DNA from: Eutreptiella sp. 'Long Island Sound 2002' | Taxonomy: Eukaryota; Euglenozoa; Euglenophyceae; Eutreptiales; Eutreptiaceae | Direction of reading: 5' to 3' | Assembly: GCA_964036045.1 (NCBI GenBank) | Contig: OZ038382.1 | Location: 108,212,578 to 108,276,577, forward strand | Length of the DNA: 64,000 bases | Shown: positions 3,420 through 54,085 of the stretch, in pieces | Numbering within the stretch: the stretch's first letter is position 1 | Layout: each line of letters opens with the position of its first letter | The notes under the pieces: generated by a model | Database searches by the model: none | Seen by the model: the letters and a program-made list of their open reading frames with translations, nothing else | Told to the model about the DNA's origin: nothing | Made by a program: the position numbers and the translations under genes

Positions 3420-4140
3420 TTGAGCTTTGCGAGGCTTGGCATCACCACATAGTGCAGCCAGGATTCAAGAAGCAAGCCCTAGCCATGCAGCGCCGTTTCG
3501 AAATAAATGAGATTGGTCTCTAAAATGCCATCAAGCAGGTCAAGAAGAATAGTTCGGTCTGCCAGGCCTGCACCCCTGACAATCGGAATGTCAAGGGGGA
3601 AGCCCAATGGACGCCAATTCCTGACGGGCTCATGGAGAGCATGGCCATGGATGTCTTCTTCATGCCTGAAGTGCATATTGCAAAGGAAGTTTTGGATTGT
3701 GTGGTCCTGTGTGTGAACCGACACAGCGGCGACATTGTGGCCGTCCCGGCGGGCAAAAAGGGGTTGCGAGCCAAGGGAGTGGCAGTCATGATGATTCGTC
3801 ATTGGCTGAGCGTCTTCGGCGTCCTCTGCACCATTTGCAGCGACTGTGGACCCCAGTACACTGGCGGCTGGTTCAAGGCCATGTGTTCCCTCATGGGAAC
3901 TCATCATGCCAAGAGGTTTGACTATCTCGGCCAGTCGACTGGCCGAGCTGAATCTGCAGGAAGGCAGCTGCTCGAGAAGCTACGCAAGATCCCCCTCCCT
4001 AACAAGCGCCCCAACTGGTTTAAGGCGATCTGACCGGTTGTCAAGGCCAATCATTACACCCCCAAACCGGGTCGCTTGTCGCCTCACCAGGTTCTTTTCG
4101 GCAGGGACCCCACCGGTCAGGGACTACTTTGTCGGGTGAT
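3420..4140 (+). pseudogene. integrase of element A
   Basis: The zinc-binding HHCC region is visible at about 3438-3575 (WHHHIVQPGFKKQ then SVCQAC), with one stop in it. The catalytic core at 3632-4033 keeps its three acidic residues: Asp in AMDVFFMPE, Asp in CSDCGPQYTGG and Glu in TGRAESAG. Family SDRGPQ has become SDCGPQ. It ends at a TGA near 4031. Integrase joins element cDNA to the chromosome. Confidence 0.8.
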
Positions 4141-4534: not shown

Positions 4535-4564
4535 CTTAGGCAGCTCAAGTTGCATGGTCAAAAT
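4535..4564 (+). repeat. Tn1 left terminal inverted repeat
   Basis: It starts CTTAGGCAGCTCAAGTTGC and matches the reverse complement of 10855-10884 at all but two or three positions. The flanking ACCGT at 4530-4534 is the left target-site copy. Confidence 0.85.
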
Positions 4565-4844
4565 GCGCCCAAAACTGCCTCTCCACGGCACTGCGAAAAA
4601 AAAGTCCTTTTGGGGGGGACCTAAAACACAAGAACCAAAATTCCTGTGAAAAGCAATTCACTGGTCCATTTGCCTTTATTTTCAACAAAACCGACTGCCC
4701 GGGAAAATGACCACGACTTTTTGTTTCCTATACCACTTATGCTTTGCAAAAAAAACACCCATGAGCTTTCAATCTTTTGAAAAACCAGTTTTCGAAAACC
4801 ATGTTGCACGCTGTACGACAAGAAGCATTTTTTGGCATGCCTTC

Positions 4845-4866
4845 TTTGCGCGAGGCCTCGCGCAAA
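4845..4866. repeat. Tn1 palindrome copy 1
   Basis: A 22-bp perfect palindrome with core TGCGCGAGGCCTCGCGCA, in the spacer downstream of gene B. Confidence 0.9.
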
Positions 4867-4954
4867 CACCAACACAACAGCGCAATAAAATGCATCACAG
4901 GAAAATAATGCCGCACAAGGTGACAGCATAAATGTCGTCGAAGAGGAATGCATA

Positions 4955-4970
4955 GCGCGAGCCCTCGCCC
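4955..4970. repeat. Tn1 palindrome copy 2 (degenerate)
   Basis: GCGCGAGCCCTCGCCC, two mismatches to the core, just downstream of the gene B stop codon. Confidence 0.7.
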
Positions 4971-5806
4971 ATAATATAGAAGAACAAGCGTAGAAATTAC
5001 TTTTTCTTCGGAACAGTTTGCATCTTAGAACCCAATGCCTTAGCAACGGACGTCTTACCCTTAGGGGGTCGCTTTGCGGGCTCGCTTCTTGGTTGGGACT
5101 GACGGGCTGGCTGCTTGAATGGAGCCCGGGCCCCGTTTTCCTCGGACCTCGGCTTCGCTGCCACTTTCTTCGCTGCCTTGCCCTGGGAGACCTGCGCTTC
5201 TTCCTCCTCTTCTTCCTCGCTCTCCTCCTCTTCATCCCCATCGCTCTCGTCGGATTCTGCACCGGTAACCGACTTCGCTGCCTGAGGCTCCGAGGCAGTC
5301 TTCTTCTTCTTGGGGGCTCGTTCCCCACCAGTAGACCTTCGCTTTGCAGGGGCCAGTGCTTCTGCAGCTTGACCTTTCTCAACAGTCTCTTCCTCCTTCA
5401 GCGACAACGCATCAGAACCGACCTTGTCATCGCGAACCCAAAGGGGAATACCACGGTTTGACCAGTTGGCCTGCTGGTCCCAATCACCAGACGCGTCCAG
5501 TTTCGACCCTTGTGTCAAGACGTGGTTGAACTGAGTCTGCACTCTGTTGACCCAATCAGAGAGATTGTCGGAGGTAACACCAAGAAGGTATATGCGAGAA
5601 TCCGGCTCGATGGACGCGATCTTGCACACCAGATCCGGCTGATGATCAATGAACACAAACGCAGGCTTGAAGCTCTTATCCTGCTTCAGGTAAAAGAGGT
5701 GAGTGTCAAAATACCACATAACCGTCGTTATTGGAAGGTGACCGCCAAATTGAACAGGATCCATCTCCTCTACTTGGGTAGGTCCAAACGTCAGATAATT
5801 CGGAAT

Positions 5807-5873
5807 CTGCAATAAGGGAGAAGTTATTGCACGAGGCCTCGCGCAAAGAGCGGACGTAATGAGGGAATTATAC
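5807..5873 (-). other. Tn1 gene B intron 4 (67 bp) with palindrome
   Basis: Donor GTATAA, acceptor TTATTGCAG, both in phase 0; a palindrome copy with one mismatch lies at 5827-5846. Confidence 0.6.
5827..5846. repeat. Tn1 palindrome copy 3
   Basis: Inside gene B intron 4; one mismatch in the left arm (TGCACGAGG). Confidence 0.85.
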
Positions 5874-6574
5874 CTTTCTCGACCAGCTATCCGGTGACGA
5901 AATCAGCAATCAGCGAACGTCAACTGTTGTAGGATCCCCTGCAGGCTTCGGTTTGACTGGCCAACTGAAGATGGGAACAAGCAACATGATAGCCATGCGC
6001 GGCGCGTTGAAATCATCGTTGAGACGCCTATCTGTTTCTGTCTCCAGCACGTTGAACATGTTGTCAACAACAGTTTGAGAGCCGCAGATAAGAGTATCCG
6101 CACACGCCATCTCTTCATACAGCCAGGCTGGGCACATCATCTCAGGAGCAAGATGTTCAAATATGTCGCCGTTGATGACAATCAGGTTCTTGTCAATCTC
6201 AATAAACCGCCTCGGGGGATTGTGGGCCAACGCTGCAATTCGGGTCACCTTAATTGTGATAGTTTGACTTGACAGTAATGGATCCTGCTGTTCCACTGTC
6301 TTGAAGTCACCAGTAACGCCAGCAGCTGGGGGGACCAAACGGCTCTTGGTAGGCTCTTGACCCAGGAGTTTTTGGACATTGAGGATTTTCAGGGAGGCGG
6401 GTTTGCCTTTCTCTGCCACCTGCCACAGTGGTGCGCGAATCATGGATTTCCATGCCGGCCATGGACCGCGACTTCTGCCTTCAGGTTCCCGCCAATAGCC
6501 CCATGTACCAAGAGTCACCTTCAGGGCAGGCCTTCCAAGTGCAGCAACCTCTTTGCGGGTCCGCATGTCTTTGG

Positions 6575-6648
6575 CTAAAGAACAGAAAGGGAGAGAGTGC
6601 GGCGCACCAATGGAGAAACGGAACCCACGTCGTGTCGATGGTACACAC
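6575..6648 (-). other. Tn1 gene B intron 3 (74 bp), no clear palindrome
   Basis: Donor GTGTGT, acceptor TTCTTTAG, chosen because it is the only nearby GT that gives the splice phase needed by exon 4. It holds only a weak GTGCG-CC-GCAC hairpin that could be a decayed palindrome. Confidence 0.4.
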
Positions 6649-6946
6649 CCTTCTCAGGTCAAACGTACTGGCCGTTGTGCGGGTGGTCCAGATGCATTGA
6701 GACCCACTGGTCAAGGATGATGTCGTCAATCGAATTCAGCAAGGATTTAAGGGTTGTTTTTTCTTCCTGCATCACTTCTGCCACTTTCTTGTAGAACTCC
6801 GGCAACAGGATCCCGTCCAGGTTCTTCAGCGCGTTCTTCGTGACTTTCTCCCCTTTGTCGTGGAACTTCTGCAGACGTTTCACAGCTTCCGGACCAGCAT
6901 AGTAGGCAAACCTCATAAAATCTTTCCACAATTTATACGTTTTGTC

Positions 6947-7017
6947 CTGGACGTGACAACATTATGCGCGAGGCCTCGCGCAACGAACAGCATCGAAACA
7001 ACGATTAATGAACATAC
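6947..7017 (-). other. Tn1 gene B intron 2 (71 bp) with palindrome
   Basis: Donor GTATGT, acceptor CGTCCAG; a perfect palindrome copy at 6965-6982 occupies about a quarter of the intron. Confidence 0.6.
6965..6982. repeat. Tn1 palindrome copy 4
   Basis: Inside gene B intron 2; perfect 18-bp core. Confidence 0.9.
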
Positions 7018-7369
7018 CAATTGACCAGGCTGCTTCAGTTCAGCGGGGCACTCATCTGCACAGCATCCACAATGGTGATCTTGAGATTGCTGTACGTGTC
7101 AGCCAGGCCTCGCCGCCGCTGATCTTCAACACATCGAATGAGGTTATCTGCTGCCTCATACAGCGGTATTGTCTCAACATCTTGTGCGCTTCCTTGTGCT
7201 TGTCCCGCCAGCTTTGCATGGAAGGCCCACGGTGTTGTAGGCTTCAGAATGTCGGCGATGCATGTAGTATGCCACTGCTGCAGATCCAGACACGCTGTGC
7301 GTCGCTTCTCCCGAATGTTCGCAATCGCTTCCACGCTGTGCTGTCAAGATACACACCAATAATCGCCAT

Positions 7370-7442
7370 CTGCAAATATGAGACACGTCTATGCGCGAGG
7401 GCTCGCGCAACGAGAAGAGCGAACAGTCGGTTGGCAACATAC
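7370..7442 (-). other. Tn1 gene B intron 1 (73 bp) with palindrome
   Basis: Donor GTATGT, acceptor TTTGCAG; the Tn1 palindrome (7392-7409) sits near the centre. Splicing keeps the downstream helical exon in frame. Confidence 0.6.
7392..7409. repeat. Tn1 palindrome copy 5
   Basis: Inside gene B intron 1; one central mismatch (GAGGGCTC). Confidence 0.85.
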
Positions 7443-7933
7443 TATTATCTTCCCAGAGAAAGATGTGTAATGGGCCTGTTGGCGGTGCTGCTTCGAGTGA
7501 CTCAATACGCTTCTGCAGTAACTTCGTATCTTTTCGTCTAATCTGCCCCTTTTTCTTCTCCTGGTTGATTCTCACGTTGTCCAGCTCAACCTCCACCTGC
7601 CTCTCATCCGGCTTCAGGTGGTGCTCGATGTCAGTACCCAAGGTTAAGCCAGGATCTGGTGTTTCCTTCTTCTTACGCCCCTTCTTTGGTGTTCCAGCCT
7701 CCGATCCTGAGGTCCCAGGGTCATAGTCGGTATCTTCTCGTTCCTCGGCTGTTTTTTTGGCGGGGCTTGCCATTCTGCAATAAGGAGAAAGCCTGTATTG
7801 AAGGAAACATAACATTGAAAAGGGTTGAAATCGTCGTCGATAATGCATATGTGAGGCGCTTTTAGCGAATACGAGTACAGTATGGTTGAGAATGCCAAAC
7901 TGAAGGGGCTCGGCACTGTTTTTGACTGTTAAC

Positions 7934-7955
7934 CTTGCGCGAGGCCTCGCGCAAG
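7934..7955. repeat. Tn1 palindrome copy 6
   Basis: Perfect 22-bp palindrome in the spacer between genes A and B. Confidence 0.9.
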
Positions 7956-7990
7956 AGAGGGGGTGTACTAACCTGTTGTTTCATGCTGTT

Positions 7991-8008
7991 TGCGCGAGGC
8001 CTCGCACA
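7991..8008. repeat. Tn1 palindrome copy 7, abuts gene A stop
   Basis: Directly follows the gene A stop codon on the minus strand, one mismatch. In RNA it would form a hairpin at the start of the 3' untranslated region. Confidence 0.85.
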
Positions 8009-10030
8009 TCACTGCATGTTCTCCAATCTTCTTCGAACGTTTCGCAGCGTGTCGACCTCTCTCTGTTCCTCCAAAACACTGCGTTGGGGGATCAGCTCCG
8101 ACAGTTTTCGCTTAAAACCAGCCTTAAGCGGCCCCTGCTGCGTTAGCACCAACAACTCAGACACAAGGACTTGTTTGTAGTGGTTAGAACGCTTTGGACT
8201 TAGAAGAGACGGTGGAAAGTTAGGTACACCCCTGCGCGGCAAATGCGCCTGAATTGTAAAAGTAGGCTCAGCACACCACCTAGCCCAGGGCACATATACA
8301 CGCTCTGCGTTCAAGTAAGCAGTTAACCGCTGACGCACGGAATTGACAAAGGAATTGGACATTTTGCAGACGTTCACCCTGTGACCTTCTTTGCGGATGG
8401 TGATGAGATGATACAGATCGTCAACATCTTCAATGGTTACTGCACCTCTGTTTTGGCCCTTCTTTGTCACAAGGCTGGAAAGCAGACTTTCACAAAACTG
8501 CTCGGCAAAAGCCTGTCCAGGCATGGCTGTGTGCCATGCAGTGTGGCACAATAGCGCAGTTGCAACAGTGCGTTCGTATTTTAAAAGTGTGTTTCCCATG
8601 TTGAAACGGTCTAACAGACACATAACAATCTGCAATCCCTCGGAAGCAAAAACACCCGTGTTGGCCGTCTCCCCGGCCCAGTTGCACTGTCCAACGAGGT
8701 GACCTAGGTATAGTAGCATAGGACAGTATTGTGTTAACAGAACCTGTATGGCCTTACACACAGCGTAACGGAGGCGTCCTCGCCGACTTCCAGGACGTGC
8801 CAGCCCAAGGGAATGACATTTTCTGTTAAGGCGCCGTATGTGGGGGCCCATACCCAACAGCAGTGCGCCAACAGTTATCTCCATTGTCATCAGCTTGGGA
8901 AAACAGGGGACTGTGTCACCGCTGCGCAACAAACCTTTACGGAAGAAAGTCATGATCGGCCAAAATGAGCAAGATGTTTGTGTAACGCAAAACTTGTACG
9001 CGTGCCAGAAACCATACAATATAGGGTGTGACCGCAAGAAAAGCCGGACATTCCGACCCGTTGTTTTTTCACCGTACATCATCTTACAAATGTGGTAATG
9101 GATGTTCTCATCACATAAAACAGGCACAACTGGTCGACTGTACTGCGCCAAGTCCCTAGTGAATTGCAATAGATTAAGCAGCGAGACGTTGCCGCTCACC
9201 TTTTTTTGGAATAGACAAAGGGGTCGCCAATGTGGTCTCTTGGCGGGTACAGGGCGAATAATGTCAAGCAACGCCCTAATGTTTCGAACAACAGGTCGCG
9301 TGCTTGCAAATCCTAGATCACACAGGATACGTGCAAATGTTCCCTCGGTGTTCCCCAGCATGCGTGCAACAACAGGAACACGCCGTTCAAGCTCTTCCAG
9401 GCTAGGATGACCATGCCAGTAGCGCGGTGCATCCTTCAGTAGCAACACAGCCAAGGCTGTTGCGTTCAGGCTTTTGTCGTTCTTGTCAGGATTTGTGGCA
9501 AACTGTTTGTTGTACCCGTTGTCCATCCACAACACAATTCACTGTTGGTGTATTTTGTTCCATGTAGTCTGTAACCTGACTGCGGCCTTCTCCGTCAGCG
9601 ACGGTGCGCTGTATCGCGCCAGACCTGACCTTGCTAAAATGCGACGCTGCGCCCTACTTCCCTCTACCGCAACAACTGACTTTGGTTTTCCCTGGTATGG
9701 AACTGCGTGGTGGCGCATCAAGAAATAAAGGCGCCAGTCCTCCTCTATCAAAACACCAACCCATCTCTTGACTTCTGCCGCAATCGCCTTTACAACGCTG
9801 CAACGCGTCAGTTCATTTTTGCGCAGACGCAGAAAAAACACAAACAACAATCGCGCGCCCTCGTCCCCCTGTTTTAGCCCTTCCCACAGTTCTTCTGCCG
9901 TGTGGTACGGCGGTTTCTCTGAGCAGACAGTGCGGAAAACTGCAGATGCTGCGGCCACTGTCTTCTCAAGCTCCACCTCTTTTTGCAGTGGCATTGTTGC
10001 TGTGAAGAATAATTGGGTACCTGTATCCAT
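8009..10030 (-). pseudogene. Tn1 gene A, candidate transposase
   Basis: One minus-strand frame of about 673 codons from the ATG at 10030 to the stop at 8009-8011, broken only by an in-frame TGA near 9540 (IHQQ, stop, IVLWMDNGYNK). The first 163 residues are helical and charged. The rest has a VLWMDNGYN motif right after the stop, several His/Cys/Trp positions (YWHGHP, HYHICKMMYG) and a basic C-terminus. I do not recognise the family. Its position as the longest gene of a terminal-inverted-repeat element makes transposase the likely role, but I could not place a DDE triad. A Tn1 palindrome begins immediately past the stop codon. The stop is a CGA-to-TGA type change if the residue was Arg. Confidence 0.55.
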
Positions 10031-10381
10031 GTAAAGATCGCTGTTTGAAAAACTTTCTTGCTTTGAAACATCAACCTGTCACACAGTTTTCGCGCAATCA
10101 ATTTTTTCGTGATTCGCTTGTCGCATGCACCATTTTCGGGTTAACTGTAACTGTCTGGTGATCCCACATTTGACTAGTTAATCCTGATTGCGGTAGCCAG
10201 TTGCGGCGCGCTACCATCGCTGTTGGGCAGTGAAGCCAGCGGTGACCACAGTATGAAAACTGGAGATGCCGGCGGGACCTGTGTGGCCGACCATGCAGCA
10301 GCGCCGCATCAAGGGAATGCACATGCTGTGTAGTTGGTGGATCTGTTCCATTTTCGGTTTCTATGAGCGCTTATGAGATCC

Positions 10382-10403
10382 ATTGCGCGAGGCCTCGCGC
10401 AAT
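10382..10403. repeat. Tn1 palindrome copy 8
   Basis: Perfect 22-bp palindrome in the region upstream of gene A. Confidence 0.9.
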
Positions 10404-10441
10404 GATCACCGAAACTTTAATGTTTCTCTTGCGCCGTTCCA

Positions 10442-10459
10442 TGCGCGAGGCCTCGCGCT
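10442..10459. repeat. Tn1 palindrome copy 9
   Basis: Upstream of gene A, about 60 bp from copy 8; core intact except the last base. Confidence 0.85.
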
Positions 10460-10667
10460 TGAAACTGCAGTTTGTTCCGGAACATTTATACTTTTCAAGA
10501 TTCTTGGGTACACAATTGTTGAAGTTTATTCGTTAATAGATCCATCTCTATCACGCAATCCTGATAATGGTACTAAGTTACGTGTATAAATACGACAGAG
10601 TTCCGTTTTTCGAAAACCTGCCTAATGCGTCGTGCTGTAGTACATTAATCTGACACAAATGGACGTC

Positions 10668-10689
10668 TTTGCGCGAGGCCTCAGGCAAA
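10668..10689. repeat. Tn1 palindrome copy 10
   Basis: Subterminal, about 165 bp inside the right inverted repeat; a mismatch in the right arm (CTCAGGCA). Confidence 0.8.
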
Positions 10690-10854
10690 GAATGGTCACC
10701 AAAGAATACTTTTCCCTGTCTCGCCCATGGGACACGTCATTCTTATAGCAATATTTAATCCGCCATACTTGTTTGCGACGCTTTTAAAATATCCATCAAA
10801 ACAACTATTTTTTGATGTCTTTGGAAACCTGTCATTTTCCTACCTCTTCCTTCG

Positions 10855-10884
10855 TTTTTGACCATGCAAATTGAGCCGCCTAAG
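10855..10884 (-). repeat. Tn1 right terminal inverted repeat
   Basis: Its reverse complement starts CTTAGGCGGCTCAATTTGC. The flanking AGCGT at 10885-10889 is the right target-site copy with one mismatch, after which the chromodomain reading frame continues. Confidence 0.85.
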
Positions 10885-37222: not shown

Positions 37223-38240
37223 CTATTGTACTGAAAACTACCAATTGGCCCGTCAATTTCTTGAAATCAGACTGGCGGCCCTTCAGGTAAAGCTGGATGA
37301 CATCGAGGTGGAATTGTTTGCGAGCCGACAACAGCTATCATGCAGTTGTAATGCTCAAAACATTTGAACAACGCTTTCTGTTTCTTCCGGAAAGCAATGG
37401 CCCTTGCGTATGCTAACCCTCCCTTCTCCCTGGTCGCGAAGGTTCTAACCAAAATCGCTTATGAGGGAGGAAGGGTTGTCATGTGCACCCCTGACTGGGG
37501 CTGCTCTGGTGAACACGCTTACTGGCGCCGTATGCTAGATCGAATGACGGTGGGAAGAGTGCAACTCCCCGACAGTCCCATCTATGTGCCTGAGGACTCA
37601 GACACAGTTATGCAGGCCCATGAATGGGCCAGTTTCTTATCCATCGTCGATGTATCTCTCAATCCTGTACCCCCGTGTGACCTAGACCAGGTGCTACTGA
37701 AAGAGGTCACGGCCGAAAATTGTGGCCTGATCCTTTCTGATCTCAAAAATCAATCTCCTGAGCACCTCACACCCACACTTACACGTCGTGAATCTCCCAA
37801 TGGCTATCTGGTACCTGCAGCTGTTAAGGAGGATGCTGATGACCAAATGTCTGAGATCGCCAGCACTATCCCCCCACGTAGATCCCAGCTGTGTTGATCT
37901 AAAACACAGTGCCTTCCTAGCCCAGCTGTTGCTGGAGGAGGTGGATCTAGAGTCAACCTCAGAGCCCACTTCCCCTGTTGGGAAACCTGTGCTACACATG
38001 CAGCCTATGCACACAGGTGAACCCGTGGCCCGGAGTCCTGATGCTCTAGCGCGGCCTGCTTCTAATAACATGCCACTGTCTGAGCAGGACACTCAGGAAC
38101 TCTGACGGCTGTGGTACCTGCAGGCCGAAGGTATTGAGCGCCAAGAGCGGCTACAATACCTCAGACAGACCTGGAAATCCTCCATTTGGTCTGAGGAGGA
38201 CGATGATTCCTATACGCTGCCTGATCCTGAGATACCCCTA
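37095..38240 (+). pseudogene. Extra domain between protease and RT in B (NPPF motif)
   Basis: After the protease shift the frame reads DDIEVELFASRQQ (about 37300), then in the next frame ALAYANPPFSLVAKVL (about 37395) and EGGRVVMCTPDWG (about 37460), then a long acidic linker to the reverse transcriptase. The order 'ELFAS ... NPPF-SLV-KVL ... P-W' is that of the methyltransferase-like domain known from DIRS-type retrotransposons, where it sits after RNase H. Here it is before the reverse transcriptase. No intact SAM-binding glycine loop was seen. A frame change near 37885 and a TGA near 38103 break it. Confidence 0.5.
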
Positions 38241-38988
38241 GTGTATTCTTTGAACTATGGGCAGCAATGTCCTTCTGAGTGGGACGATGGTTCTGTACCT
38301 GCCGAAACTGCTGATCCGCAGAAAACGAAAGATCATGGAAAGAGCAACCTCCATGCTGAGGAGGATTTCCTGCAGAAAGTCGAGAGTCTTAACCTAGACC
38401 CCCGACTAAAGAAACTGCTGCCATCCTATGAGGAGGTGTTCGGCGCCTTGCCGCCCCCCCTCTCTTGTAAAAAACTGGTAGAGATGGACCTGAAACTGAA
38501 ACCTGAATTTGAAAAGACGCGAGTGAGGCGTCGTCCCTATCCCGCTTCACAGGAACAGGTTGAAGAAATCGAGCGCCAGATCCAGGAATGTTTTGATGCT
38601 GGCCGTGTGGAGGAATATAAGAAGGGGGACTACCCCCATCACTGCAGTCCCTGTTTCCTGGTTGCTAAACCAGGGTCGACTGCCCTACGACTGGTTGTTG
38701 ACTATGGTGAGGTCAACAAGAAAACCGTGAACCGCTCAGGGAGTATTCCCAACATGGAAAATACCCTGGAGCGTATTGTCAAATGCAGGTACAAGACCAA
38801 AATGGACAAACGCAGTGGTTTCTGGCAACTAGACCTAACCGCCGCAGCTCAAGAGCTGCTGGCTTTTATAACCCCTAAGGGTCGTGTGTTTAAATGGAAG
38901 GTCATGCCTTGCGGGGTGGCTAATGCCCCAGCGCTCTTCCAGGAGCGAATGAACAACATTTTGTACATACTGAGGCACCGACCTCTAG
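38241..38988 (+). pseudogene. Reverse transcriptase of element B, N-terminal part
   Basis: LRLVVDYGEVNKKTV (about 38690), KTKMDKRSGFWQLDL (about 38800) and FKWKVMPCGVANAPALFQ (about 38890) are fingers-palm motifs of a Ty3-type enzyme. It is cut after ILRHRPL by element C; CTAG (38985-38988) is the left target copy. Confidence 0.85.
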
Positions 38989-40116
38989 TGACGCGTTCCC
39001 GTGGGGGGCCTGGCCACGGGACGCTGCGGTGGACACGCACAAGCAAGCAGGCAGGCAAAGCACTGCGCTCACAGGGGCATCATCACGCTCGTGTCCTGTG
39101 ACAAAACGTTTCAGGATCCTTGCCACTCTGATACAAGGGAACAGAAGTATGTACAGCAACACATCAGGATATGTACACATGGGGTTGGGACTGGACTCGG
39201 GTAAGAGCATCACAGGACAATAGACACTCAGTCCCAACTCATATCCCAATCCAAGGTCCGACCCTCTCAGTGGCTGGCAGGGGCGGGGGCTCAAACACAA
39301 CCCATGCCCTACTCAGTCCGGACCCTGAAACCCTGCCAATGGGGGAGGGTGTACCGCCGAGCCACAGGCGAGTTCCTGGGAACCAAGAGGCTCCAAGGCC
39401 AACCAACAGTGGCTTCCCGTGCTCCCTTAACGGCAGGTCGGAACTTCACTCTGGGCCAGAGATGAGGCCCCGCCATTATCACCTAGGAGTTGGTAGCTGA
39501 AAATGGGCTGTTTCAGCCCAAACTGATATTAGCTCCGAAAACTCCAAAATTGACCCCTCGTCTGGACACGCCAGAAGTGTGGACGAGGCAACAGACCCTA
39601 TGCTCTTCAGGTACGAACTTCCTGGAGCCCTCACCCAACCTGGTTCCCTCTGAGGTCCCGGCATCAGGGCACTACGGGTTCATCAAGTGGGGTCATGATG
39701 CCAAAATCACCAAAATCGGCGTCATTCCCACGGGTGGCTCGCCCGGCCAGGGCAAGGCCAATGGCTCACAGGATAGGAGGCAGGACCTAGGACCTATATC
39801 TGAGTGCACAGAACGGGCGACGTCAGGCGGTGATTTCACGACAATCAGAAATCGTGGTAGAAATCGGGTATTTCCCCGATTTCTAACCGCAAATCAACCA
39901 AGACAGTAAAATTATGATAATTCCACATCGATTTAATGGTTGGAAATCGGATTCCAGATTTCGCGGGTTAGAGAACAGGGATATCCCGCTGACAGCCGGT
40001 GTCAACGGCTTCCGCACGGGTGTGACGGCTCACAGGCCTCCGGGCCATGGGCCATAACGGGTGTGACGGCTCACAGGCCTCTGGGCCATGGGCCATAGGT
40101 CCTGGGTACCGCTTCA
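38989..40116 (-). repeat. 3' LTR of element C (1128 bp)
   Basis: On the minus strand it starts TGAAGCGGTACC and ends GGGAACGCGTCA. Nearly identical along its length to 51097-52223, with scattered substitutions and small indels. Confidence 0.92.
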
Positions 40117-41605: not shown

Positions 41606-42004
41606 TCAGGCGCCCCTGGCTGCAATCGGCCGGGTGAGTGCTGCCAAGTATGAGACATGGATCTTGGTCTTGTGCTTGCGGGTGTAGTCCACAAAGGGGG
41701 TGTTAATCCGCGGCACGAACGAGGAGACGGGTTCCCAGGTGTCGTGGGACGGCCCATAGCCTCGCCAACGAACCTTGAACTCCAGGCCTCCGGGTGCCGA
41801 GGCGTTCGGACGCTGGGCCAGGATCTTCTCGACGGTATAGTCGTCCTGCTCAGCATAGTCGTCGTCCGAATCAGCCTCATGTGCGGCATAGTCCAGGGAC
41901 ACATGTTGGCCACGGAGGTCGGGTTCCCGCACACGGAGTTGACTCTCTGTGGCGCTCCCGGAACTGTCCGTGACCCACCTTGATGCGGTACGTGTCCTCA
42001 CCAA
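41606..42004 (-). pseudogene. Chromodomain of element C
   Basis: An acidic DSDDDYAEQDDYTV stretch, then VEKILAQRPN and LEFKVRWRGYGPSHDTWEP, then a basic tail, ending at a TGA. The chromodomain core is intact. It lies one frame from the integrase, so a small shift separates them near 41900-41990. Confidence 0.85.
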
Positions 42005-43600
42005 TCCTGCCGACCACCTCTCCGGGTGTGAACCAGGTTTTGGTGCGGTGGGTGCCCATAGGGCGGGGTCTGATCACCCACACTGGGTCTCCCACCCTGA
42101 ACTTTTGCGCTGTCGAGCTCGGGGCGGACTTCTGACGCTCAGCATGCTCCTTCTCGAGCTGCTGGCGGATGTCCCGCGCCGTTGCCTCTTGCCGCGCAAA
42201 GAATTCCTTGGCGTCCATGGTCATACCATCACCAGACAAGGTAAGTCCCCGACCAAGGGGCTCCCTGCCGAACAGAATCTGGTGAGGGGACAAACCACCC
42301 GGAGTGGGGGTGTCATGATGGGCCTTCAGAGCGGGCCACATCTCCTCAAACCAGTTCCGACGTGGATTGGTGATATGAATCTTGCGCAGCTTCTCGAACA
42401 GCTGCCATCCAGCCATTTCAGCCCGGCCATTGGACCGGCTGAGATAGGCGACGCTCTTGGCATGACGTATTCCCATGAGGGTACACATGGCCTTGAACCA
42501 GCCACCAGTAAACTGGGGCCCTCGGTCACTGCAAATGGTGCGGGGGATGTCAAAGACGGTCAGCCAATGACAAATCATCATGACTGCCACTTCCTTGGCA
42601 AGCAACCCCCTTTTGCGTGCCGGAACGGCTACTACGTAGCCGCTGTGGCGGTCCACACAAAGGACCAAACAGTCAAAGGTCTCCTTGCCTATGTGAACTT
42701 CGGGCATGGAGAAGACGTCCATGGCCACGTTCTCCATGGGCTGGTCAGGCACCGGAGTCCATTGGGCTTCCCCCTTGACGTTCCGGTTGTCGGGATTGCA
42801 GGCCTGACTGACCGAGCAACCCTTTCCGACCTTCTTGATAGCGCTGTAGAGACTGATCTGGTCGATTTGGAACCGGCGCTGCATGTCCAGGGCTTGCTTC
42901 TTGACCCCTGGGTGCATCATTTGGTGGTGCCAAGCCTCACATAGCTCAAGCACTCGGTTTTCCGGGACCAGCAGCTTACCATTCCGGTAGAGTTTGCCAT
43001 CCTCCTCAGTCAGCACCTTTGGCCACTTCTGCCCGTCATCAGGGTCGGTCACAGCCCTATATTCGGCCTCAAAGGCCTCAGACTTGGCGTAGTCGTCGGA
43101 CCAGTCGTCCTGGAGGCAGGATTCAGGGAAGAGGTGCTTGTCGGACTCAGCTCCCTCAGGGGCGAGTACTCTGACCGCTCTGCCCATCCTCGTTCCGAGG
43201 GGGGCATCTTCAGCCATGACGACGAAGCATTTAACACCCTCCTCCTCCATCAGGCGCTCCATTTCTATGATCCTCTTTGCTTCAGCGGTCTCAGCCTCAT
43301 CGCCATGGGCGGAGACATCTGTCCCGCCCTTGCTGGCGGGATAGGCCCACCTACTGAGACAGTCCGCCACGGTGTTGTCCTTACCAGGAACATACACAAC
43401 CGTGAGGTTGAACTTGGCCAAGGTCTCATGCTATCTTGCCCGTCGGGAGGCAGGACCTGAGGGGGTGTCCACGTGCTCTTTGTGCCACGACTGCAGACTC
43501 TGATGGTCGGTGCAGACGGTGACGAGATGGAGGGCTATGTACCCAGCCCATTTCCTGAGAGCCATGACGATGGCATACACCTCCTTTTCTCGGGGCGTCA
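41877..43600 (-). pseudogene. RNase H end and integrase of element C
   Basis: RNase H: PREKEVYAIVMALRK, CTDHQSLQSW and VADCLSRW, with a TGA near 43608 (CGA-type change) and a TAG near 43424 where element A has Trp. Integrase: HHQMMHPGVKKQ and GCSVSQAC (zinc domain), Asp in AMDVFSMPE, Asp in CSDRGPQFTGG, Glu in SNGRAEMAG; all three catalytic acids are kept. The C-terminal FRVGDPVWVIRPRPMGTHR domain follows. Confidence 0.85.
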
Positions 43601-43607
43601 ACGTCCG

Positions 43608-45315
43608 TCACTGGCCTTCCGCCAGGACTCGGCTCCAGAGGGCCACTGGCACGTGCCTCCCATCGTCAAGCACTTGTTCCAACACAGCGCCAACGGCGTA
43701 GTCGGTGCGCAAGACGAACCCTCGGTCAGGATCCACGAGCTGCAGACCAAATGCGGATAGCAGCGCCTGCTTCATCCCCTCAAAGGCACGGTCGGACTCA
43801 GCATTCCAGCCCAGAGCCTTCTTGGACCCCTTCTTGGTCTCCTCTCGGTTCCCCTTGAGCATGGTGGTCATGGGGGCTGCATACTCGGCACACATCCTGA
43901 TATACCCCGAGTAGTAGTTGCAGAACCCCAAGTACGCCTGTAGTGCGCCAGGTATGGGCTTCCGCTGCCCGTTCCCAACGACGTGGCCAGCGAAGACCAC
44001 CTCGCTTACCGCAATGGTCGCCTTGTCACTGCTGCCCGTGAGTTTGTGCCAAACCAGAAGGTCTGGCACTCGGGTGACGTCCCTCTCATGTGCCTCCAGG
44101 TGCTCCTCATAGCTCATACTGGGGTCCCCGGACGCGATGATCACGTCGTCCACAAAGGGGTCCGCATTGCCGTTGGTAAGGCCCATGGGCATCACCTTCC
44201 ACTGGAGAGGTCCAAGTGGGGTGCTCATGGCTGTGCAGGCACAGGACTCCTCGGGCGAGAGGCATCTGATGATAACCATGTTTCAGGTCAATCACCGTGA
44301 AGATCCTCCGCCGGTGTTGTTTTTGCAGCATGTCCTCAATGAGGGGCAGCGTATAGCTGTCATGCTGCGTTTGGGCGTTTAGGCTGTGGTCGTCGACCAC
44401 GAGCCGCCACTCACCGGCCACCTTCTTGGGGACGACGAAGCACGGAGAGGCCCACTCGGAGTGGCACGGCTCAAGCCAGCCTCCCTCGATGAAATCAGGG
44501 AGGATCTTCTCCATGGCCTCCTTCCTCTCGCCCCTCAGGGCGAACTCCCCGTGTCGATACACACGGGGGTCCTGCTTCAGTCGTATCTTGGCCTCGCCAT
44601 ATGGTCCACGCACCGGTGGGGGAAACACAGGTTTTCCGCTGAAGAAGGTATCCCCGTACTTCTGCTTCAGCCTGGCCCTCAATGCCTGGATCTTGGGGCA
44701 ATCATCGGACTCCGCCTTGGACTTTCCGGGCACCTGGACCACTGAGCTAAATTGAGGGGTAGCGACTCCACTCGGTTTCGGCTCAGGTGGTCTTCCCTGG
44801 TGGCCCAAAGGGCCATCTCTGGTCTTGCCTCGGAACAAGTCGCCGTAGGTGGGTGGGTTGCCCCCGACTGGCTTGTCCTGGCTGGACATGTGGTCCAGCA
44901 CCCTCTTTACGAGGGTATTCCGATCATAGGAACCAGAAACAATCGAGTCCACTTCCCACCAGGATTTGTCCTGGCCCTTGCCCTCACGCTGGTTCCCCCA
45001 GTCGTGAAAGGGCTGATCCATATACCCCTGAACCAGATCCAACACCTCTTCAGTGAGGGGGTCCTCCGATTCTCCGATGTCAACAGGGGAAACCGCAAAG
45101 CATTGCCGCCATGGCTCCGCTATGATGCGGTTGACACACACGAAGTCCGTGGTGTCGGCCTGTTCAAGGCCCCCATCCACATAGTGGAATTCCGTTGGCC
45201 ATCTCTGGGGTGGCATGGGCTGTCCCTTAGCGTCCTGATAGACACTCTCTCTAGCCGGTAGGACGACCTTGTTTAAGGTCATGTTGGTCAATGAGACCAC
45301 CCAAACTCGGGTGCT
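43608..45315 (-). pseudogene. Reverse transcriptase of element C
   Basis: SEWASPCFVVPKKVAGEWRL, VIDLKHGYHQMPLA and FVDDVIIASGD are the palm motifs. A shift occurs near 44250-44280, and about 40 codons including the FQRMMNNLL-type helix are missing between NGNAD and PFVDD relative to element A. The frame opens right after the conserved TAA at 45316-45318; the first ATG is in SLTNMTLNKVV. Confidence 0.85.
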
Positions 45316-52617: not shown

Positions 52618-53140
52618 AGGTGGACCGCCAGAGAGGAGGAGTGTTTCCAGGATTTGAAGAAGAAAATTGCCTCCTTCAACTGCCAGTGATGTAGGGGTGT
52701 GTGGAACGATCTACCAATGACAGAAGCTCAACCCAGCTGAACTCGGCCACTGCCATTAACGTACTAGAGGACTGAACCGTGATGGCTCCTTGAAACATGA
52801 CTATCCTACCAGTGAGTGGCGGCTGGTGCGACTGGGCCACTGAAATTGGAAATCGAACCAAGCGCGTTCCAATTACAGCACCTATGACCAGGAGTTCCTG
52901 GCCGGTATGTTGGTGTTTTCGTCACAATCCCGACTCCTGGGATCTAACCCTATTGTCTGGCTCTGTGACCAGGAACCTGTGAAGTCTTTTCAGAAGGGCC
53001 CACCACCAGAGAAAGCAACACTAAAGCGGTGGTGGACTTACCTGAGCCAGTTCAGGCTGACAGTTCATCATATCCCCGGTATAAAAAATGAACTGTCTGA
53101 CTATATATCGCGCAATAACTTCGATGCGCTTATAGGTGAG
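52618..53140 (+). pseudogene. RNase H of element B
   Basis: The first half (52618-52870) is full of stops. The second half reads YDQEFLAGM (Glu), WLCDQEPVKSF (Asp), LSQFRLTVHHIPGIKNELSD and YISR (last Asp). An Ala- or Arg-for-stop reconstruction is not attempted. Confidence 0.7.
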
Positions 53141-54085
53141 AGCTCTGAGGCGATGGCCAAAGAGGCTTTCCAGCGTATGGATGTCCAGCTTGACCTGTCC
53201 ATGCGCACTGCTGGAATCCTGGAGGGTTCGAGCCTAACCGACTATCAGTCAGAGTATAAAGAAATTCTCCAAAACCTCAGCACTGGTCTCGAACCCCGTG
53301 TCATTGACGGGCACCAGTGGAATAAAAACAACCAGTACCTCTTCTACGAGGACCGTATTTTTGTACCTGAGGCCCAGCTTGATGGGTGCCTACAGTGCTC
53401 CCATCTCATCTCTGGTCACACTGGCGCTAATCGGTCAGTGGACTTCTTCCGTGAGTGTTTCTACTCTAGTCTAACCCTGACTGAACTGAGGTCTCGTATG
53501 CAGACCATTGGGGATGCCTGTGGCTGTCATGCCAGTAAGCAGAGCGACAGTAGGGATAGGGGACTGATTTCCAGCTTACTCATACCCTATTGTGCTAACT
53601 CTCCTCTCTATGTGGAATTCATCCACGGTCCACCACGCTTCGGCGGCTATGATAGTTGCTTAGTGGTCACCTGTGGCCTACTCCGCTTCACCCGTGTGTT
53701 CCCTTGCAATAAGAAAATCACAGGTGAGCAGACTGTGAAAATGTTGGTCGAACAATGGTTCGAACCCTATGCGGCACCTAAGCATGTGCACTCTGATGAA
53801 GATGTACGCATCCACAGTGACACTGGATGGTACAAAGGAGTGCTAAATGCCCTTAACGTGGAGGTAACCACAGGTGTGCCCTATAACCACACGTCTAACC
53901 CTCTTTGTGAGACGCAGAACTGTGTGGTAGAACGAAACCTAACCATCCTGATGAAACAGACTGGGTTAGTCTAGTGCCCTGGGCAGTGCTGACCATCAAC
54001 TCACAGCAGAGCTCTTCTACAGGTTTCACCTCCCACGAACTGTTCCATGGAGGACGACCTCTTTCCTTAGGACTTCAAGAGTCCT
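53141..54085 (+). pseudogene. Integrase of element B
   Basis: HHCC zinc domain (HLISGHTGANRS at about 53400, CGCHASKQ at about 53520), then the core. The first catalytic position reads YVEFIHGPPRF: Glu where the family has Asp. The second is Asp in HVHSDEDVRIH, the third Glu in NPLCETQNCVVER. A TAG near 53972 ends the main frame; WAVLTINSQQSSSTGFTSHE follows in another frame. Loss of the first Asp alone would be expected to disable strand transfer. Confidence 0.8.

Follow-up and report, generated by a model that had tools for sequence, protein, structure and literature searches.

Why does a DNA transposon carry ten copies of one short palindrome in its introns, spacers and ends, and none in its exons? 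The question is raised by positions 4535-10884 of a 64-kb stretch of DNA (hereafter the window) from Eutreptiella sp. 'Long Island Sound 2002' (GCA_964036045.1, contig OZ038382.1, positions 108,212,578 to 108,276,577), which is part of contig C5 of the 2.28-Gb genome that was searched. These positions were found to hold a single copy of a DNA transposon (designated family 1) with two genes, A and B, and 29-bp inverted ends. The 18-bp palindrome TGCGCGAGGCCTCGCGCA had ten matches in the window at up to three mismatches, all of them from 4847 to 10687, against a mean of 0.01 matches in 100 shuffles. On the strength of a core common to two transposon families, flanks specific to each family, fewer non-CpG substitutions and avoidance of exons, we infer that the palindrome is probably a dyad DNA-binding site, made up of two half-sites and bound by a dimer of an element-encoded protein, with the gene B product as the likeliest candidate.

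Palindromes in the family-1 transposon

Palindromes were found at the same places in copies L001-L010, with ten (at up to three mismatches) in nine copies and nine in L008. Counted along the element, those of L003 begin at 198, 426 and 484 before gene A, at 2876 and 2931 right behind its stop codon, at 3475, 3912 and 5049 in introns 1, 2 and 4 of gene B, and at 5923 and 6031 past the gene B stop codon. The majority sequence of 15 full-length family-1 copies has seven exact sites, two sites with a single mismatch and one with two mismatches; the central dinucleotide accounts for two of these changes. Five sites in each element lie less than 0.7 kb from an end, and the other five are internal, more than 0.9 kb from either end.

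All ten palindromes are outside exons in each family; since only 27% of positions in family 1 can hold an exon-free 18-mer, ten of ten there would be expected with P of about 2e-6 if the sites were independent. The first-pass annotation, made from the window alone, had placed ten exact or degenerate palindromes in introns, spacers and subterminal DNA and none elsewhere in the window; both statements held (the latter at up to three mismatches), and the alignment of full-length copies that it proposed found the sites at constant rather than random positions.

Genome searches returned at least 25 family-1 copies at 94-100% identity, while the exact 29-bp end occurred 805 times in the forward and 770 times in the reverse orientation (0 for the reversed control). 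Divergence of the 15 aligned full-length copies from the column majority is 0.8-2.9%. Of these 15 (a set that includes the window copy), 12 are flanked by a perfect 5-bp target duplication; the window copy itself (ACCGT/AGCGT) and one further copy match at four of five positions, and copy L009, which has lost the first base of its end, at two of five. The element thus has the terminal inverted repeats and fixed-length duplication of a cut-and-paste DNA transposon. When the flanks of the window copy were joined, an open chromodomain-like frame resulted (DDYTVEEILAHLL..., the chromodomain being judged by eye), so that the inverted ends, the 5-bp near-duplication and the restoration of a chromodomain frame on excision, all proposed in the first-pass annotation, were each confirmed.

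A second family with the same core

Family 2 was found through a relative of gene A, P0075, and has at least 84 scored matches in the genome. Its gene A is approximately 46% identical to that of family 1 over 636 amino acids, the gene order is the same and gene B is colinear. One copy (n=1), read through from adjacent stretches, measures 6851 bp, has ends CTTAGCCCACGC... and is flanked by the duplication ATTCA/ATTCA. It carries ten palindromes with the same core, eight of them exact, one with a mismatch and one with an altered centre. The layout is that of family 1: three sites before gene A, two after it, three in introns and two after gene B. The first seven sites recur in other family-2 loci that reach them, with exceptions in single copies. 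With the palindromes masked, comparison of one copy per family (blastn, E <= 1e-3) gave four matching stretches, all gene-bearing and one of them spanning intron 3, which indicates that the non-coding DNA around the sites has diverged and that the sites have not.

Flanks and substitutions

The bases adjoining the core differ between the families (one copy each): in family 2 a G is present in 20 of 20 half-sites, followed by an A in 18 of 20, and in family 1 the adjoining base is T (14) or A (6). Across five flanking positions, agreement between the two arms was no commoner than between shuffled arms (ten sites a family, hence low power); the arms vary independently, as fits two separately read half-sites better than a base-paired stem.

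Changes at C and G positions outside CpG numbered 6/895 in family-1 palindromes compared to 228/8723 in other non-coding DNA, and 4/504 compared to 180/7107 in family 2, where all changes at CpG were also fewer in the palindromes (14/672 compared to 109/2335). The family-2 counts cover seven sites in 12 loci, eight of 20 loci having been dropped because fewer than 4200 bases were covered, and exon 2 of gene B, whose end was not found, was left among the non-coding columns. In the 15 family-1 copies, transitions at CpG were two to three times as frequent as those at other C/G positions, both in exons and in non-coding DNA outside the palindromes, which hints that the host methylates CpG.

Introns of gene B

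Four introns were predicted in gene B by a splice model (Table 1). Introns 1-3 are supported by family 2, in which the frame is kept with introns at matching places; intron 4 is less certain, as its place is similar and the single family-2 copy read loses its frame after it. Comparing intron positions, as had been suggested at first pass, therefore showed them to be shared for introns 1-3 and similar for intron 4. The statement that three of four proposed introns (67-74 bp) hold a palindrome near the centre was correct for family 1, with the introns as predicted. Each family has palindromes in three of its four introns, but in a different three. Since the intron places are common to both families and the palindrome-free intron is not, the introns predate the present placement of the palindromes. 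Enrichment in introns was considered as a further argument and dropped after a test conditional on exon avoidance, in which three of ten sites in introns was near expectation (P =0.12 and P =0.09 for the two families).

Distribution of the palindrome and of short elements

The exact palindrome occurs 10,135 times in the genome (reversed control 0). Locations were analysed for the first 50 listed exact sites, on contig C1 between 1.8 and 11 Mb. Of these, 47 either have a neighbour at one of the family spacings or lie no more than 6.5 kb from a family-1 end; a random distance matches some family spacing with a probability of 0.27, while only 0.06 chance neighbours are expected. Two of the remaining three are located inward of exact family-2 ends, by 200 and 345 bp, so that 49 sites were placed in such elements and one was unplaced. 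Under a stricter criterion, an exact end of either family within 7 kb, 41 sites qualify, and eight of the other nine show family-1 spacing. The palindrome is therefore frequent in this part of the genome, but within elements of the same kind, so that the refuting outcome set by the first-pass annotation, a genome full of the palindrome outside this element, was not seen in this stretch. One exact site on one virus contig was taken as chance, and no transposon end was seen when the GC-rich stretch L048:3000-3700 was read by eye.

Counts of the exact 20-bp family-2 end are 832 on one strand and 825 on the other (control 0). Among 100 listed places (C1, 1.8-109 Mb), 33 pairs of ends face each other at less than 15 kb: 13 are uniform in length (1161-1214 bp) and make up a class that would, from its length, be non-autonomous, 15 measure 6.5-6.9 kb and five have other lengths. 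The only pair of the short class within the stretch of listed palindromes (C1:4607763-4608974, 1212 bp) contains no exact palindrome. This single case suggests that copies can spread without exact palindromes, and hence that the sites act in the expression of the autonomous element or its escape from silencing. The first 11 Mb of C1 contain 19 exact inverted repeats of family 1 or family 2. Inward of 17 of them, at a distance of up to 7 kb, exact palindromes follow, and for 13 of the 17 the nearest one is 197-377 bp away.

Two clusters have a spacing unlike that of full family-1 copies and would represent a further subfamily or a short derivative: at C1:7465746-7467247 a family-1 end is followed by exact palindromes at 377, 483, 670 and 1484 bp, and at C1:2186266-2187768 by palindromes at 376, 669 and 1485 bp. 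With four and three exact palindromes respectively, they show that short or divergent members are not all alike in this respect. A further short family-1 element, of 1906 bp, lies at C1:43841763-43843668.

Some observations concern the copies themselves. The bases adjoining one end are identical in L003 and L004 (G000:C27:12966364 and 12913480), and two pairs of family-2 matches (C5:3788880/3819578 and 3795147/3825846) are offset by an identical 30.7 kb; together these suggest segmental duplication. The interrupted copies L022, L023, L024 and L025 each join sequence with TGAAGCGG, which seems to be a different repeat that has inserted into the element or been joined to it, and a longer identical stretch is common to L023 and L025.

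Genes A and B

Gene A looks like a DDE transposase gene on the basis of its sequence. The window copy has a single in-frame stop (9539-9541), which is absent from L003. In the protein collection 83 relatives were matched, and 136 by profile (120 listed); those of high identity are mostly on long contigs from a single source, and others, at 28-40% identity to gene A, are on short contigs of 2-6 kb. In an alignment of 15 relatives (A4), an aspartate is invariant in W-x-D and in VD[ET]N[IL]H, as are the W, H, Y and K of WHxYK, while EExxE is present in 12 of 15 rows, the other three stopping short of that region. Gene B, which is interrupted in the window copy, encodes an acidic and basic tail. 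The open frame P0045 combines gene A sequence with a C-terminal part resembling the last exon of gene B, an arrangement such as an internal deletion might produce.

There was no credible match for gene A or gene B in Pfam, NCBIfam or PDB (one family search used a gene B protein from an earlier splice model, with exon joins unlike those of the final 833-amino-acid model). The best E-values of the 15 gene A relatives against Pfam were 0.14 and 0.53, both to unrelated families. A ParB-like domain was looked for in gene B and none was detected. Among virus contigs two stretches fitted a pattern for gene A relatives, and neither was confirmed.

Table 1. Family-1 transposon and its features in the 64-kb window
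Feature	Positions	Strand	Remarks
Family-1 DNA transposon	4535..10884	-	genes on minus strand; within chromodomain-like open frame
Terminal inverted repeat	4535..4563	+	element 3' end in gene orientation
Palindrome	4847..4864	.	3' subterminal
Palindrome	4954..4971	.	3 mismatches; just past gene B stop codon
Gene B	4997..7773	-	5 exons; 833 amino acids spliced in L003 (splice model)
Intron 4 of gene B	5807..5873	-	67 bp; palindrome in both families
Palindrome	5828..5845	.	in intron 4; 1 mismatch
Intron 3 of gene B	6575..6648	-	74 bp; without palindrome, family-2 counterpart has one
Intron 2 of gene B	6947..7017	-	71 bp; palindrome in both families
Palindrome	6965..6982	.	in intron 2
Intron 1 of gene B	7370..7442	-	73 bp; palindrome present, family-2 counterpart without one
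Palindrome	7392..7409	.	in intron 1; central dinucleotide altered
Palindrome	7936..7953	.	spacer between genes A and B
Palindrome	7991..8008	.	immediately behind gene A stop codon; 1 mismatch
Gene A	8009..9994	-	putative DDE transposase; 661 amino acids in L003 (P0001)
Palindrome	10384..10401	.	5' subterminal
Palindrome	10442..10459	.	5' subterminal; 1 mismatch
Palindrome	10670..10687	.	5' subterminal; 2 mismatches
Terminal inverted repeat	10856..10884	-	element 5' end in gene orientation

Elsewhere in the window, reverse transcriptase, integrase core and RNase H matches of retroelements were found at 38106-39098, 41880-43430, 44110-45315 and 52844-53971, the integrase and one reverse transcriptase match being slightly below the Pfam cut-off.

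Comparison with known systems

VANDAL transposons are Mutator-like elements. PMC5735166 describes a VANC21 signal on VANDAL21 of Arabidopsis that is stronger in introns, in intergenic DNA and in the terminal non-coding regions. The present element is similar in that copies of a short motif recur in these three kinds of place within a transposon of several genes (as is the case in both families here) and in that motif variants differ between families. The likeness in anatomy is one of layout. The motif here is palindromic, whereas palindromes are not mentioned in the main text of PMC5735166 or PMC10398659.

A second comparison is with En/Spm (CACTA) transposons, in which TnpA binds subterminal repeats to bring the ends together, and which likewise have two genes and a short binding motif repeated many times close to the ends. 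They differ in that half of the sites here are internal, that the ends are CTTAG...CTAAG here and CAC...GTG in En/Spm, and that the target duplication is 5 bp here compared to 3 bp for EnSpm in the available part of PMC12730594. The same part describes the KDZ elements (Kyakuja, Dileera, Zisupton), eukaryotic DNA transposons which also have a large transposase gene; membership was not supported, as Zisupton target duplications are 8 bp and there was no credible Pfam match. Assignment to the CMCT clade (EnSpm, Mirage, Chapaev, Transib, Plavaka), for which C(2)C and H(3-4)H motifs between the second D and the E are described there, was likewise not supported, no such conserved columns being found in A4 by inspection (PMC12730594). 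For hAT5 the 5-bp duplication fits, yet there was no hAT match in Pfam. No report of a conserved palindromic motif in transposon introns was found in a literature search, nor was anything on palindromes in the available text of a paper on brown-alga transposons (PMC12477816).

Interpretation of the palindrome

The first-pass annotation had offered three ideas: a transposase- or partner-binding site kept out of exons, an RNA hairpin acting in splicing or 3' end formation, and the scar of an introner-like insertion that made the introns. Introners and invasive introns are short introns with shared sequence, and the introns here are likewise short and carry shared sequence, in three cases of four and near the centre in family 1; however, the shared sequence is not present wherever an intron is, the introns predate its placement, the palindrome-free intron is a different one in each family and three sites of ten is no enrichment given exon avoidance, so that this origin is refuted, with practically no probability left to it. 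A hairpin would account for sites in introns and shortly behind both stop codons in both families, but it is very improbable, given that the palindrome is missing from intron 1 in family 2 and from intron 3 in family 1, that three sites lie upstream of gene A and that the arms do not covary beyond independence (at low power). The first idea is the best supported of the three: the exclusion from exons was borne out, and the binding is put forward here as probable.

Two other accounts also invoke bound protein. The palindromes could be obligate for transposition, a transposase or helper binding them to join the ends, as would suit the half of the sites close to an end and the inward palindromes beside 17 of 19 exact ends; we consider this unlikely, because the other half is internal and because the class to which the short pair without an exact palindrome belongs has spread well (13 of 33 listed pairs), a point that concerns exact sites in one element. 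Alternatively, the element might make use of a host protein (an insulator, replication or chromatin factor) that binds the sites. A core common to two diverged families is what one unchanging reader would produce, but the flanking half-site bases are family-specific and only one of the 50 listed exact sites is not placed in an element, so that no host array is seen in that part of C1; this account appears improbable.

The reading that we prefer is a dyad site read by an element-encoded protein, and several points stand against it. CpG transitions were not clearly reduced in family-1 palindromes (27/1192 compared to 70/2415 in other non-coding DNA, P =0.32), and the P values for the other substitution comparisons (6e-5, 0.01 and 0.002) are too optimistic, as the copies share ancestry and the cells are not independent. 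Family searches revealed no recognisable binding domain in the gene A or gene B protein, the analyses do not tell the two products apart as binder, and the binder may be a host protein. In the available text of PMC5735166 and PMC10398659, VANC target motifs diverge quickly between related elements and form tandem repeats, while the core here is common to both families and only the flanks differ.

Under binding by an element-encoded protein, the element would keep some ten sites across its non-coding stretches, at both ends, behind both stop codons and in introns, and the introns would serve as ready-made non-coding slots. The bound protein would coat the autonomous element and keep its genes expressed, as VANC does on VANDAL transposons; given binding, this is the likeliest role, proposed tentatively and by analogy. 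Help in assembling the transposition complex is a possible role that ranks next, transcriptional autoregulation would account for what is left, and the weights given to these roles overlap with that of obligate transposition sites. A more specific and distinctly doubtful version makes gene B a ParB-like protein that would bind about ten parS-like dyads, spread over the element and shield it from silencing by CpG methylation, introns persisting as the sole slots within the gene. We take the N-terminal part of gene B to recall a ParB / sulfiredoxin-like fold (GQH after a V-x-V-x-L strand), a likeness that no search confirmed.

Implications

For the question of why a selfish element retains its introns, the two families amount to a natural experiment: they share the intron places, but the sites come and go among them. 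Whether dispersed sites borne in introns help an element to escape silencing or to transpose can be clearly tested in this system. It also indicates a transposase lineage that matched nothing in the protein-family libraries used here (Pfam and NCBIfam).

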